Under the pieces are notes generated by a model, which worked only from the letters and a program-made list of their open reading frames with translations, made no database searches and was not told where the DNA came from. Of a stretch of DNA of 23,477 nt, positions 223 to 23,477 are shown one piece after another (the stretch's first letter is position 1; the number at the start of each line of letters is the position of its first letter). The DNA comes from a virus. A program made the position numbers and the translations under genes. The DNA lies in IMG/VR virus record IMGVR_UViG_3300048784_000209, positions 1-23,477 of that record, one strand, 5' to 3'.

Positions 223-232
223 AGGGTATAAT
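205..232 (+). promoter_or_regulatory. sigma-70-type promoter of the Met tRNA
   Basis: A perfect TATAAT (227-232) lies seven bases before the first base of the tRNA at 240. The -35 region (TGGCAC, 205-210, spacing 16) is a poor match. The spacing implies that transcription starts at or one base before the mature tRNA 5' end. Confidence 0.55.
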
Positions 233-239
233 ATCAATT

Positions 240-314
240 CGCAGGGTAGTGGAAGGGTCACCATTTTAGGCTCATAACCTAAAGCACTAAGTTCGAGTCT
301 TAGTCCTGCATCCA
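240..314 (+). tRNA. tRNA-Met (CAT), initiator-like
   Basis: A full cloverleaf: acceptor 240-246/304-310, D stem GTGG/CCAT, anticodon stem TTAGG/CCTAA with loop CTCATAA (anticodon CAT at 273-275), a 4-base variable loop, T stem CTAAG/CTTAG with canonical loop TTCGAGT, then T and an encoded CCA. The terminal pair is C1 with A72, a mismatch that is the hallmark of bacterial initiator tRNA. Against a strict initiator, the anticodon stem has only two of the usual three G-C pairs next to the loop, and positions 11-24 are T-A as in elongators. It is either an initiator tRNA that has diverged or an elongator with a damaged first pair. Confidence 0.9.
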
Positions 315-16059: not shown

Positions 16060-16068
16060 TGGTATAAT
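16060..16068 (+). promoter_or_regulatory. extended -10 promoter, start on ATG
   Basis: TGGTATAAT (16060-16068), a perfect extended -10, then six bases (TAGGAC) and ATG 16075. The expected transcription start is the A of the ATG, giving a leaderless message. No -35 needed or seen. Confidence 0.6.
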
Positions 16069-20320: not shown

Positions 20321-20861
20321 CCTTGTTACTCTTACTGAGATTTTCTTGCCAAGTTAACAATTGAAGATTCCAAGGGACATGAAGTCCGCATACGTCTTTA
20401 CCGCGCAATGGAATTATGTGATCCACGTGGAAAGCCTTACCATCTTGATTGAGCCAAGCAAGCTCTTGAGCCAATGTATAGAACTCTTGAATCTCTTCAA
20501 GATGCTTATCAGTTAACCATTCAGGTGTAGCTTCATTCTTAGCTGCTCTATATCTAGCATATAAAGCATTGCGCTTATCCGGGTTGGCCTTTCGCCAAGC
20601 GCTAGATCTAGCCTTTACTTCTTCTTTGTGTGCCTCGTACCAGTTCTTTTCAAGAACCTTAACACGCTCAACATTATCGCCTTTATACTTCTTGTTAGCG
20701 GCCAACTGTTGTTCTTTGTGGGCCTCATACCAAGCCTTGTAAAGCTCTTTTTGCTGAACCTTGTGAGTATCGCGATAAGCTTTCTTCGCAATCTTACGAC
20801 ACTCTGGGCAGCGCAGTAAATCTTTGGAATACTGGTGTAGACCTTTTTCACATGTCTTCAT
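20310..20861 (-). CDS. HNH homing endonuclease, 183 aa
   Basis: N-terminal zinc site C4/H9 with CPEC (18-21). A repeated linker unit ([10 protein letters not shown]..., [10 protein letters not shown]...) is followed by ATPEWL and the HNH core [20 protein letters not shown] with [16 protein letters not shown]. Same subfamily as 8998-9504 and 22422-22952. ATG at 20861 stands six bases after a perfect extended -10, so a leaderless message is expected. It converges on, and overlaps, the VTC gene end. Confidence 0.87.
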
Positions 20862-20867
20862 CTGCTT

Positions 20868-20876
20868 ATTATACCA
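20868..20876 (-). promoter_or_regulatory. extended -10 promoter, start on ATG (minus strand)
   Basis: On the minus strand TGGTATAAT (20876-20868), six bases (AAGCAG), then ATG 20861. Same geometry as at 16060, 19388 and 21783. Confidence 0.6.
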
Positions 20877-20922
20877 TAACTACTTGATATTATTCCGATC
20901 CTATTATCCCACAGGAGAAATT

Positions 20923-21519
20923 ATGGCATTAGGCACAGCGATATTTCTTATATTTATTATCTGGTTGGCTATCAGAATGTGGCCAGTAACATTGGCCATT
21001 TTGACTGTTGTAGTGCCGCTAGCTGTTTTGTCATTTGTTTTGCTTTTATGTTATGCCGCGCACGAAGATCATCAAAGAGAAACAATCGATAGACAAGAAA
21101 AGCAAAATCAAGTTATTCAACAAAGAGCTGCTGAAGAAGCTCAAAGAAAGCAAACCGAAAGAGAAAACAAGGCTTACGAAGCCTCTAAACAAATCACGCC
21201 AAAAACAGAGAGTGTGCCCGCCATTAGACTTAGCATGACCAAAAGTCAAGTATTTAAGGCCTATGGAACACCAGACAGAATAGAAGAGGACGTAGATTAT
21301 TGCGCTGGCTTTGACCGCAACAATAACTGCATCGTGTCAAAAACCACAGAGATGTGGTATAACACAAAAAGCTTCTGCGAATACTATCCACCAAGCGACA
21401 CTCCTGGTTATGGTCATTTTTCCGGTGGATACGGTAATTGTGAAATAACTATAAAGAATAACAATGTTATAAGTTGGACTGGTTTTGGGCATGCCTTTGA
21501 TAGTAAATATTCACCCTAA
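20923..21519 (+). CDS. membrane protein with SmpA/OmlA-like C-terminal domain, 198 aa
   Basis: ATG 20923 after AGGAGAAATT. Two hydrophobic stretches (TAIFLIFIIWLAIRMWPVTL and AILTVVVPLAVLSFVLLLCY) anchor it. A charged coiled-coil linker (about 45-90, Gln/Glu/Lys rich) leads to a domain starting IRLSMTKSQVFKAYGTPDR, the pattern of the SmpA/OmlA (BamE-like) fold, with four cysteines further on and a Gly-rich PGYGHFSGGYG. Such domains bind proteins at membranes. Rather AT-rich, perhaps a recent acquisition together with the HNH gene next door. Confidence 0.72.
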   Translation: MALGTAIFLIFIIWLAIRMWPVTLAILTVVVPLAVLSFVLLLCYAAHEDHQRETIDRQEKQNQVIQQRAAEEAQRKQTERENKAYEASKQITPKTESVPAIRLSMTKSQVFKAYGTPDRIEEDVDYCAGFDRNNNCIVSKTTEMWYNTKSFCEYYPPSDTPGYGHFSGGYGNCEITIKNNNVISWTGFGHAFDSKYSP

Positions 21520-21537
21520 TTTAAGGTAACAAATAGT

Positions 21538-21762
21538 ATGAGTAAACAATCAGCAAAAGAACTACTAAACAAACTTAACGTCGAGCAAGAATATCCCGAT
21601 CTTAGCCCTGCTCAGCAGGCGTCGATTGTGCATGATCGACTTAAACGAGATCAGCAGCAATACGACAAAGTTAAAGAACTAGAAAAACGAATTGAAGAGT
21701 TAGAAAACGCCCATGACTCTGACTGTACTTGCAACGATTGCAATGACGGAAAACTAACCTAA
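21538..21762 (+). CDS. coiled-coil unknown protein, 74 aa
   Basis: ATG 21538 follows the previous stop by 18 bases with AAGG rather far upstream. The sequence is helical and charged (YDKVKELEKRIEELENA) with a C-terminal CTCNDC cluster that could bind a metal. No family recognised. It is the last protein gene before the stable-RNA block. Confidence 0.65.
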   Translation: MSKQSAKELLNKLNVEQEYPDLSPAQQASIVHDRLKRDQQQYDKVKELEKRIEELENAHDSDCTCNDCNDGKLT

Positions 21763-21782
21763 TTTGCTTAGGTATTGTGCCC

Positions 21783-21791
21783 TGGTATAAT
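21783..21791 (+). promoter_or_regulatory. extended -10 promoter of the stable-RNA block
   Basis: TGGTATAAT followed by six bases (CAAATC) and ATG at 21798. The only evident promoter upstream of the tRNA-Asn, tRNA-Phe and RNase P RNA, so it probably drives all three. Confidence 0.6.
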
Positions 21792-21797
21792 CAAATC

Positions 21798-21917
21798 ATG
21801 ACGACGCAATTGTTCACAAACAATCAAATCTTAAGGAACCTCTCGAGTTCCAATGCGTCATCGTATAGTCTCTTTAATAGAGATTAATATACAGGCCACC
21901 TACCCGCTTACGTAGGT
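21798..21917 (+). ncRNA. structured 5' leader of the RNA block (or leaderless 29-codon peptide)
   Basis: From the predicted start base on, GACGCA (21803-21808) pairs with TGCGTC (21854-21859) around two hairpins, ATTGT/ACAAT (21809-21824) and GGAAC-CTCTCGA-GTTCC (21835-21851): a three-way junction. Next come a nested hairpin GTATA/TATAC with TCTCT/AGAGA (21863-21892) and ACCTAC/GTAGGT (21898-21917). The same start also opens a 29-codon frame (MTTQLFTNNQILRNL..., stop TAA at 21885-21887), placed on the start base like the leaderless genes. Either or both may be real. The function is unknown; it could be a tRNA-like processing signal. Confidence 0.45.
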
Positions 21918-21935
21918 ACAAATAAAAGTTAAGAT

Positions 21936-22030
21936 TGGGAGATAACGCTCAGGGTGAAACGTGACTGGCTGTTAACCAGATCTTGGGGATAAAACCCCTT
22001 AGGCAGGTTCGATCCCTGCTCTCCCAGCCA
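21936..22030 (+). tRNA. tRNA-Asn (GTT) with class-II-like variable arm
   Basis: Acceptor TGGGAGA/TCTCCCA (21936-21942/22020-22026), G73 and CCA. The anticodon loop CTGTTAA (GTT at 21971-21973) on CTGG/CCAG is identical to the E. coli tRNA-Asn loop, and U1-A72 with G73 also fits Asn identity. The T arm GCAGG-TTCGATC-CCTGC is canonical. Between anticodon and T arms is a long segment with hairpin GGGG-ATAAAA-CCCC, instead of the usual five bases, so the RNA is 95 nt long. Asn tRNAs normally lack this arm. The D stem is only 3 bp (CGC/GTG). Confidence 0.88.
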
Positions 22031-22035
22031 AATAT

Positions 22036-22112
22036 GCCCACTAAGCTAACCTAGTGGAAGCGTCTCCCTGAAGAGGAGAAGATCGTTGGGGCGGAACCAA
22101 CAGTGGGCACCA
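22036..22112 (+). tRNA. tRNA-Phe (GAA) with non-standard T loop
   Basis: Acceptor GCCCACT/AGTGGGC (22036-22042/22102-22108), A73, CCA. D arm GCT/AGC, anticodon stem TCTCC/GGAGA with loop CTGAAGA (GAA at 22070-22072), 5-base variable loop, T stem GTTGG/CCAAC. The T loop is GGCGGAA, not TTCRANY, so the usual D-loop/T-loop contact and T54/psi55 modification could not form normally. Everything else is sound. It starts five bases after tRNA-Asn and ends 17 bases before the RNase P RNA. Confidence 0.85.
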
Positions 22113-22129
22113 AGTTAAAAGAAAGGGGT

Positions 22130-22413
22130 TTGAGACAGACGGGGCATCGCAAGGGAAACCTTGAGGAACGTCGGAGCGGCAAGAGCAGCGTAGTGGTTAA
22201 CGACCATCCACCGCGAGGTGAGGATTAGAGCTACAGGAACGTAACCGTTTAAGTGCGGGTTGAAACGAGCAATCTCTACGTGACGCAACCTAAAATAGGT
22301 CAACCATACTACTGCTCGTAGTGTTGACGGGTATAGGGCTAGAGGTCAGCAGTAATACTGATCCCAGATGAATGATGTCACAAATACAGAACTCCGCGTA
22401 TAGTCTGTCTCAA
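22130..22413 (+). ncRNA. rnpB: RNase P RNA (phage-encoded)
   Basis: RNase P RNA is the catalytic RNA that removes 5' leaders from pre-tRNA. Here P1 is an 11-bp perfect helix (22130-22140/22403-22413) closing the molecule. P2 is GGCATC/GATGTC (22143-22148/22374-22379). P3 is CAAGG-GAAA-CCTTG (22150-22163). P4 is ACG/CGT plus CGGAG/CTCCG (22168-22176/22392-22399) with U22171 bulged exactly as universal U69. Conserved blocks GAGGAACGTCGGAGC (22163-22177), AGATGAATGAT (22366-22376) and ACAGAAC (22386-22392) match bacterial rnpB. P5/P7 is GAGCAG/CTGCTC (22183-22188/22312-22317). A GCGA-capped hairpin at 22209-22220 resembles P9, and a P18-like hairpin is at 22344-22363. About 284 nt, shorter than usual host RNAs (330-420). 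The protein partner is not in the window, so a host subunit may serve. Confidence 0.92.
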
Positions 22414-22421
22414 TACAGTTT

Positions 22422-22952
22422 ATGAAGATCTGCTCTATAGAAAGATGCGGTAAGAAGCACAAAAGTAAAGGGTTTTGTAATAACCACTACATCAAGTGGC
22501 GCTATACAAACGACGAAGAATATCGTCAAGGTAGAATCTTAAAATCCGCAAAAAGAAAAGCTGAATGGTTGAAAGAAAATCCGGCAAACAGGGCAAGACA
22601 TAACGCCACCAATCTAAACTCCATGAAAAAGCGTTATGACTCTAATCCTGATTATAAGAAAAACGAACAAGAAAGAACAAAGAATTTTCGTCGAGAGAAA
22701 TACAGTAGAGACGAAAAATTTCGGCGCAAAGAAAAAACCGCCGCTACCATGAGAAAGAGACACATTAAAGTTGCCACTCCTAAGTGGGCAAATCTCGATG
22801 CGATAAAGAATTTTTATGATGAAACTCCTGAAGGTTTTCACGTAGACCACATCATTCCGTTACGCGGAGAAAATGTAAGTGGACTTCATGTAGAGTACAA
22901 CCTTCAATATTTGAGCGCCGAGGAAAACCTGATAAAGGGTAACAAAGTTTAA
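22422..22952 (+). CDS. HNH homing endonuclease, 176 aa
   Basis: ATG 22422 lies eight bases after the P1 helix of the RNase P RNA, with no clear ribosome site. N-terminal zinc-type segment C4, C9, C19 and H22 (CSIERCGKKHKSKGFCNNHY), basic linker, ATPKWAN, HNH core [20 protein letters not shown] and NLQYLSAEENLIKGNK. Closest in the window to 20310 and 8998. AT-rich insertion between the RNase P RNA and the next gene, which suggests that it homes into the stable-RNA block. Confidence 0.83.
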   Translation: MKICSIERCGKKHKSKGFCNNHYIKWRYTNDEEYRQGRILKSAKRKAEWLKENPANRARHNATNLNSMKKRYDSNPDYKKNEQERTKNFRREKYSRDEKFRRKEKTAATMRKRHIKVATPKWANLDAIKNFYDETPEGFHVDHIIPLRGENVSGLHVEYNLQYLSAEENLIKGNKV

Positions 22953-22954
22953 AT

Positions 22955-23179
22955 ATGAACGGATTATTAGTAGCAGCCGCAGTGATGTCGGCGACTATAA
23001 ACGTAGTAGGAGTAGTACCGCCAATCATCAGGGTCACTCCTATTAACAGCAGGTGCGAGGATATCTACGCGAACATAGATGTCACCGTGACAACGATAGA
23101 GGCTACAACAACGTGCAAGGCACTCGTTCACTGCAAAATTTGCAGCGATGGTATCATAGCAGTTGGGACACAAGAATAA
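22955..23179 (+). CDS. small exported unknown protein, 74 aa
   Basis: ATG 22955 follows the HNH stop by two bases; AAGGG is 14 bases upstream, so initiation may be by coupling. The first 20 residues (MNGLLVAAAVMSATINVVGV) are a plausible signal peptide. The remainder is strand-rich (IDVTVTTIEATTT) with cysteines in SRCEDI, TTTCKALVHCKICSDG. Probably periplasmic with disulfides; compare the Cys-rich end of the lipoprotein at 8550. No family known. Confidence 0.6.
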   Translation: MNGLLVAAAVMSATINVVGVVPPIIRVTPINSRCEDIYANIDVTVTTIEATTTCKALVHCKICSDGIIAVGTQE

Positions 23180-23184
23180 AGTTT

Positions 23185-23276
23185 GGAAGATCAATCAGAG
23201 CGGCCTCTGACTCTGCCTTGAAAGCAGGTGGTACCCCTAAGACGGGTATGGCGATCGTCACGTCGGTCTTCCTCCA
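23185..23276 (+). tRNA. tRNA-Ser (TGA) with variant T loop
   Basis: Acceptor GGAAGAT/GTCTTCC (23185-23191/23266-23272), then T and CCA. Anticodon stem TCTGC/GCAGG around CTTGAAA (TGA at 23219-23221), variable arm TACCC/GGGTA as expected for a Ser tRNA, T stem TGGCG/CGTCG with loop ATCGTCA. The D arm CAGAG-CGGC-CTCTG is tight. The T loop keeps TCG but has A54 and T58, and the discriminator T is unusual for Ser (normally G). Confidence 0.75.
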
Positions 23277-23281
23277 AATAT

Positions 23282-23372
23282 GCAACGGTAGTTCAAATGG
23301 CTGAAGACGCCTGACTGTAAATCAGGTCCCTTAGGGTTAACACTGTAGGTTCGAATCCTACCCGTTGCACCA
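23282..23372 (+). tRNA. tRNA-Tyr (GTA)
   Basis: Acceptor GCAACGG/CCGTTGC, A73 and CCA. Anticodon stem CCTGA/TCAGG with loop CTGTAAA (GTA at 23317-23319), a class II variable arm with TCCC/GGGT pairing, and a fully canonical T arm GTAGG-TTCGAAT-CCTAC. It follows tRNA-Ser by five bases and precedes the next gene's ribosome site. Confidence 0.93.
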
Positions 23373-23386
23373 AAATTAGGAGAAGT

Positions 23387-23477
23387 ATGTCTGATACTCT
23401 GTTTACGTTCGATGACGTTCTGATTATGCCAGCCGCTTTCTCCACAGTGCCTGGTCGAGGTGAAGAGTATGTGAGCC
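23387..23477 (+). CDS. N-terminus of an IMP dehydrogenase/GMP reductase-like protein (partial)
   Basis: ATG 23387 after TAGGAGAAGT. The 30 visible residues read MSDTLFTFDDVLIMPAAFST, then VPGRGEEYVS. The TFDDVL(L/I)xP opening is the N-terminal signature of the IMPDH/GMPR barrel, which oxidises IMP to XMP (or reduces GMP) in guanine nucleotide synthesis. Only the start is visible, so the catalytic cysteine and family (GuaB or GuaC) cannot be checked. Such a gene would fit phage control of the nucleotide pool. Confidence 0.65.
   Translation, partial: MSDTLFTFDDVLIMPAAFSTVPGRGEEYVS

Follow-up and report, generated by a model that had tools for sequence, protein, structure and literature searches.

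The window analysed here is a virus record of 23.5 kb (23,477 nucleotides), and the whole analysis rests on metagenome sequences. Through its Band_7 protein, it could be placed in a clade of phages of about 150-177 kb, a family of large and for the most part uncultured phages. The plus strand of the window carries the following features.

21783-21791, + strand: extended -10 promoter TGGTATAAT (exact sequence match)
21798-21887, + strand: putative leaderless leader-peptide ORF MTTQLFTNNQILRNLSSSNASSYSLFNRD, closed by a stop codon; its ATG comes 6 nt past the -10, where transcription would be expected to start
21798-21864, + strand: leader helix P1, formed by 21798-21808 and 21854-21864, which takes in the start codon and closes over two hairpins (fold z -5.2, pairs counted on three relatives)
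21866-21886, + strand: leader hairpin P2, spanning the final codons with the stop (fold, pair counts)
21898-21917, + strand: leader hairpin P3, loop CCGCUUAC (three compensated pairs between relatives)
21936-22030, + strand: tRNA-Asn(GUU), CCA encoded, 22-nt variable region (ARAGORN/structure scan)
22036-22112, + strand: tRNA-Phe(GAA), CCA encoded, T loop GGCGGAA (Rfam, 42.9 bits)
22131-22416, + strand: class A RNase P RNA, 286 nt, no P13/P14 (RF00010, 188.2 bits, E 1e-59)
22168-22176, + strand: P4 5' strand ACG-U-CGGAG, bulged U kept (pairs 8/8 with 22392-22399)
22392-22399, + strand: P4 3' strand CUCCG-CGU (pairs with 22168-22176)
22422-22952, + strand: HNH/endonuclease VII-like gene, inside the array (PHROG matches)
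23185-23276, + strand: tRNA-Ser(UGA), CCA encoded, odd T loop ATCGTCA (structure scan; same place as the relatives' tRNA-Ser(UGA))
23282-23372, + strand: tRNA-Tyr(GUA), CCA encoded (ARAGORN/Rfam)

The tRNA sets were compiled with ARAGORN, Rfam and a simple structure scan that gave two false matches in 20 shuffled 5-kb stretches; visual inspection of the sequence supplied tRNA-Tyr in G063, G061 and G067 as well as tRNA-Arg in G067. ARAGORN missed tRNA-Phe, which was recovered by Rfam and by the structure scan, since the scan needs no T-loop sequence. tRNA-Ser(UGA) lengthens the array beyond the elements listed in the first-pass annotation. In the relatives, the order of the array is Asn, Phe, RNase P RNA, Ser, (Tyr) and Leu, with Arg, Ser and Cys in addition in G061 and G067. 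HNH/endonuclease VII-like genes occur at differing points of the array in G063, G061 and G067, as mobile genes would. The tRNA-Asn of the window has a class II-like variable region and discriminator G, unlike the tRNA-Asn of the four relatives; charging with serine is conceivable, because SerRS reads the long arm. Outside the arrays, we also found tRNAs with a CTA anticodon (L177, L178; two in G058 and one in G067), of an amber suppressor or Pyl-like type. At the other end of the window (224-314), GGGTATAAT ends 7 nt before a tRNA-Met (240-314); because of this spacing, tRNA-Met may be transcribed from its own first base, with RNase P unneeded.

The RNase P RNA was detected in seven related contigs, making five distinct types when the window is counted. 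The relatives used were G058 (176.5 kb) and G063 (176.8 kb), G061, G062 and G064 (same RNase P locus, up to 175 kb), and G067 and G068 (identical RNase P RNA, up to 147 kb). It lies downstream of Band_7, and in relatives reaching far enough its distance from Band_7 is about that of the window. G059 and G060 were without it, both records stopping short of the expected position, and it was absent from the available sequence of more distant Band_7 relatives (at most 62% identity). Run by blastn against 50,697 phage records, the RNase P RNA matched a single weak fragment (E=3), and that region gave no RNase P match with Rfam. By DNA, no closest isolate emerged, the whole segment matching only tRNA-Tyr genes of other phages by blastn. 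The Band_7 relatives in isolates (crAss-like, Vibrio and Aeromonas phages) reached at most 33% identity over most of the protein and indicated no host. In the window clade the gp23 capsid protein was not found and the terminase matched only weakly. Contig L134, picked up by the promoter pattern, proved unrelated.

A single extended -10 upstream of the leader had been noted in the first-pass annotation, and a perfect match does lie at 21783. The exact motif TGNTATAAT has six sites in the window against 0.45 expected, a count reached in none of 100 shuffles, and a promoter occupies the same position before the leader ORF in G058 and G063 (TGGTATAAT), G067 (TGGTATACT) and G061 (TGGTATGCT). The spacing from the -10 to the ATG, 6 nt in the window and 7 in some relatives, fits a leaderless start. 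Further exact extended -10 sites at 16060, 19388 and 20876 (-) each stand 6 nt before the ATG of genes of 183-305 codons; leaderless mRNAs may be common in this phage. Between 21791 and 22416 there is no second exact extended -10, and the + strand holds no intrinsic terminator-like site from 20800 to 23477. The stretch from leader to RNase P RNA is consistent with a single transcription unit. The reported spacings were also borne out: tRNA-Asn and tRNA-Phe are 5 nt apart, and the RNase P RNA follows after 18 nt to its Rfam start, or 17 nt with P1 extended by one pair. In G067, a TATAAT directly before the RNase P RNA is a possible second promoter. The order, strand and promoter type of leader, tRNA-Asn, tRNA-Phe and RNase P RNA are kept in five distinct clade members, and this recurrence makes co-expression of the ribozyme with its substrates, as first proposed, likely.

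Leader RNA and leader ORFs before tRNA arrays

The leader had been described as a structured RNA; the structure is significant, but a conserved small ORF within it had gone unseen. Fold z-scores were -4.1 (21796-21935) and -5.2 (21798-21923), neither reached in 200 shuffles, and the layout of helices is similar in G067 despite sequence divergence. In G063 and G058 (L127, L128), a hairpin ending in NCCA, absent from the window, lies between the leader and tRNA-Asn and resembles a minihelix RNase P substrate. The leader helices contain five double changes, and 84.6% of their cells are paired versus 32-44% when the helices are slid. These figures, like the strong fold and the lack of an intrinsic terminator on the + strand of the operon, would suit an alternative that we judge rather unlikely: the RNase P RNA and tRNAs would be passenger cargo expressed together, the leader a processing or stability RNA and its ORF incidental.

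The ORF itself speaks against that alternative, since it is kept in five types with its ATG at the expected start. In the window it has 29 codons in the form TGGTATAAT-N6-ATG, within a clade range of 27-31 codons. It is conserved in four related genomes, with the peptides MNTQLLTNRNSLRAFSSSNASFYSLFN (G058), MTTHVITNNLFLRNSSSSSVSLYSFNRL (G063), MKAFAHTSYLRSNLSRSAINDFSYFSCFNS (G061) and MKALFSQFSLRSYLSRSRYNAFSYFSCFNCK (G067), and the promoter-ATG arrangement occurs in five of five types. Asn, Phe, Ser, Tyr and Leu, for which the array has tRNAs, make up 62-73% of leader residues versus a background of 24% in phage proteins, and none of 3713 28-residue windows of phage proteins reaches the share found in the leader. 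In a ranking of 15,504 five-residue sets, this set comes third, behind two sets that add Cys or Arg, likewise array amino acids; Cys and Arg occur in the leaders where the array has tRNA-Cys and tRNA-Arg. Nor does nucleotide composition account for this bias, a further point against the passenger alternative: dinucleotide shuffling failed to reproduce it (0 of 4000 for the summed statistic), and it is absent from the other two frames. The coding signal of the ORF is moderate per pair (P 0.004-0.025 by BLOSUM), and the five sequences of this first leader fall into two related groups, their P values not being independent. RNA structure is a competing constraint on the leader sequence.

Two further tRNA arrays were found in relatives, each with its own leader. 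The Glu array is preceded by MNNAIYTIQFMEAEQERSVCVGLFA in G058 and MNNANITIQFMESEQERLVCVVFTSYT in G063, and the Val-Lys-Lys-Glu array of G067 by MRNVSVFTFESKQAKRYERMVCVSVVAV. The large arrays, which in G058 and G063 carry tRNAs for Ala, Lys, Gly, Gln, Leu, Pro, Ile, Val, His, Asp, Thr, Met, Arg and Cys, are preceded by ORFs of 42-45 codons rich in array residues. Every array that could be traced upstream opens with such a small ORF, and the amino acids of each leader tend to match the tRNAs of the array that it precedes: pairing each leader with its own array gave the best total (rank 1 of 216 within-genome assignments), the leader and array sets of the relatives being partly homologous. Taken singly, leaders of arrays 2 and 3 match weakly (P 0.03-0.34). 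In leaders that precede Glu-containing arrays, 8 of 77 residues are Glu, versus 0 of 266 in other leaders, a contrast spotted post hoc. In G069, a homologue of the third leader contains Trp and precedes an array with Trp. The pattern TGGTATANT-N6/7-ATG has 16 sites in four of the five clade genomes (whole records), against one for a reversed-pattern control, and half of them (8/16) are tRNA-array leaders; the huge phages G010 and G043 have none. Leader ORFs before tRNA arrays were also sought in other phage clades, where three candidates showed no residue match. Matching leaders of different sequence before other arrays count further against an incidental ORF, and from the residue match we infer a codon-sampling leader peptide.

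RNase P RNA in the clade and in other phages

The presence of an RNase P RNA, proposed from the letters alone, held up: the match covers model positions 1-367 and its 188.2 bits stand against an Rfam gathering cut-off of 100 bits. Outside P13/P14, the architecture is present with all conserved regions in the Rfam alignment; the P6 pseudoknot GAGCAG/CUGCUC is intact, and the GGU of the P15 loop, for the RCCA end of the tRNA, is there (CGGGUA in the alignment). P4 is nearly invariant in bacteria. Four P4 sequences occur in the clade: ACG-U-CGGAG/CUCCG-CGU in the window and G061, ACU-U-CGCGG/CCGCG-GGU in G058, AGU-U-CGCGA/UCGCG-GCU in G063 and AAG-U-CGGGG/CGCCG-CUU in G067. With G-U counted, all eight pairs form in the window, G058, G061 and G063 and seven of eight in G067, and every clade form keeps the bulged U. 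The Y-K-TCGS form of P4 was matched five times in 84,980 species (one genome each), and one of the five was an RNase P RNA above the Rfam cut-off. Compensated changes in the catalytic core argue for a working ribozyme. In G067, the RNase P RNA (L166, 2982-3389) is 408 nt long with a tRNA-like insertion in P12 (RF00005, 27.1 bits) that has an anticodon-like loop CTGATAA. A search for the protein subunit RnpA (PF00825) found none in 33 phage records, several of them fragments, while the same search found it in 10 of 10 control bacteria; the RNA would thus have to use the host protein or act alone.

To survey other phages, two motif scans of IMG/VR were followed by Rfam scoring, which gave about 50 contigs. 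Many short contigs were excluded because an RNase P RNA of about 330 bits at one end pointed to bacterial DNA flanking a prophage. More than 20 contigs remain, many above 90 kb and up to 497 kb; 16S rRNA was found in 0 of 33 records tested, and several of the contigs carry terminase or gp23 capsid genes (G010, G011, G043). The RNase P RNA is often inside a tRNA array, with spacers often of 0-6 nt (upstream/downstream: 0/-1 in G026, 0/2 in G055, 0/4 in G010 and 6/6 in G004). Where a tRNA follows so closely, cleavage at its 5' end would at the same time release the 3' end of the RNase P RNA, and the ribozyme would help to mature itself.

Several individual cases were also observed. G007 (L100, 301-507) has a 207-nt match without P12-P14 and P15-P17, a candidate minimal or decaying ribozyme, and G009 (L102, 301-771) has an insertion of about 184 nt in the P3 loop. 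On a 385-kb phage contig, a GOLLD RNA (RF02032, 212 bits; L012, 5070-5488) shares the tRNA array with the RNase P RNA. Microcystis phage MaAM05 (L072, MW495066) contains an unannotated RNase P RNA (251.8 bits) adjoining fabI and engB, and this region could be bacterial sequence. Another unannotated RNase P RNA was found in a fecal phage contig. The open-access literature, subscription papers and preprints aside, yielded no phage RNase P RNA and no leader peptides before phage tRNAs; priority is not established.

Phage RNAs without their protein in every record searched, some of them heavily cut down like that of G007, could also act as decoys that take RnpA from the host enzyme and lower host tRNA maturation without being active ribozymes. 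We consider this improbable, as compensatory changes have preserved the catalytic core, the window has the GGU loop that binds RCCA, and the RNA sits flush between tRNAs in several phages.

A standard T loop reads TTCRANN. The loop GGCGGAA of tRNA-Phe, flagged as non-standard in the first-pass annotation, is real and fails this pattern, and it is conserved in G063 and G061. It stays identical in these two across a T-stem change from GUUGG/CCAAC to GUCCG/CGGAC, and acceptor stems of the members with this loop differ yet still pair; an identical loop on different, paired stems is not an error. The tRNA-Phe of G058 and G067 has a canonical T loop, and a second odd loop, AGAATTA, is common to the tRNA-Cys of G061 and G067. 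C56, which we take from established RNase P structures to be the T-loop base stacking on the specificity domain, is kept in the odd Phe loop. J11/12, the part of the RNA that reads the substrate, is altered in the window and G063 (ACAGGAACGUAACC) and ordinary in G061 (CAGAGACGAGUC). An RNase P RNA reserved for phage tRNAs that have non-standard T loops and tuned to them, as had been suggested, would fit the conserved odd loop and the altered J11/12 common to the window and G063, but is highly improbable: G061 combines the odd loop with an ordinary J11/12, in G058 and G067 the RNA coexists with a canonical Phe loop, it lies beside canonical tRNAs in many other phages, and, as loop and RNase P RNA do not covary, the loop tracking neither RNase P presence nor J11/12, tuning has no comparative support.

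A model for the operon

Taken together, the locus is, somewhat probably, a phage stable-RNA operon with a codon-sampling leader and an RNase P RNA working with host RnpA. Transcription would start at or beside the ATG of the leaderless 29-codon ORF, from one extended -10, and translation of this ORF, built largely of codons read by operon-encoded tRNAs, would let ribosome progress report whether decoding of Asn, Phe, Ser, Tyr and Leu codons is possible. This progress would set the amount of tRNA and RNase P transcript made or surviving. P1 lies over the start region and P2 over the stop, and double changes support both as well as P3, so that ribosome position would decide which of P1, P2 and P3 can form, as in attenuation; the effect could then run through Rho-dependent termination, RNA stability or processing. 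Downstream would come tRNA-Asn, tRNA-Phe, the class A RNase P RNA, tRNA-Ser and tRNA-Tyr, in relatives then Leu and others, and the phage RNA would join host RnpA, adding catalytic RNA for the phage's own pre-tRNAs. That tRNA supply rises on shortage is our guess. More broadly, we propose, tentatively, that the clade regulates its tRNA arrays, one of them with RNase P RNA, by array-matched leaderless codon-sampling leaders, shortage raising the supply of tRNA and ribozyme. If true, this would be a feedback loop in which, for example, host tRNA cleavage as a defence would lead to more phage tRNA and to more of the ribozyme maturing it.

RNase P RNA is usually regarded as a cellular ribozyme. 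Its recurrence in phage tRNA arrays without the protein suggests that phages can take charge of the initial step in tRNA maturation while sharing a subunit of the host enzyme. With its P4 variants, the clade offers compensatory mutants, made by nature, of a catalytic core that hardly varies elsewhere. Should the matched leader peptides be confirmed, viral tRNA genes would have a regulation system of their own, and the timing and purpose of phage tRNA expression, a response to tRNA-cleaving defences among them, would become testable.

Comparison with known systems

Attenuators of amino-acid operons (trp, his, ilv, phe) likewise have a short ORF rich in the regulated codons and hairpins overlapping it. 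The phage leader, however, precedes tRNA genes, covers five to many amino acids and is leaderless at its promoter. No intrinsic terminator was found on the + strand, and because of this we do not file it as a classical attenuator. Leaders of the TnaC type, with Rho-dependent termination, also combine a leader peptide with a following RNA that lacks an intrinsic terminator, but the phage leader is without a single sensor residue or arrest motif.

Phage T4 relies on the RNase P of its host for all such cuts and is not known to encode an RNase P RNA. Its tRNA operon likewise clusters phage tRNAs that RNase P cuts from a multimeric precursor, as in T4 tRNA dimer processing (PMC11143913). The tRNA arrays of huge phages hold many tRNAs and sometimes a tmRNA (Al-Shayeb et al. 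2020, PMC7162821; megaphages, PMC8172020); RNase P RNA and leader peptides are not reported in PMC7162821 or PMC8172020. Compared with bacterial class A RNase P RNA (RF00010; E. coli M1 RNA), the phage RNA differs in lying inside a tRNA array, in having no RnpA gene, in its 286-nt length, in the absence of P13/P14 and in its unusual P4, and it shares the conserved regions, the bulged U of P4, the P6 pseudoknot, the GGU of P15 and presence in one copy.
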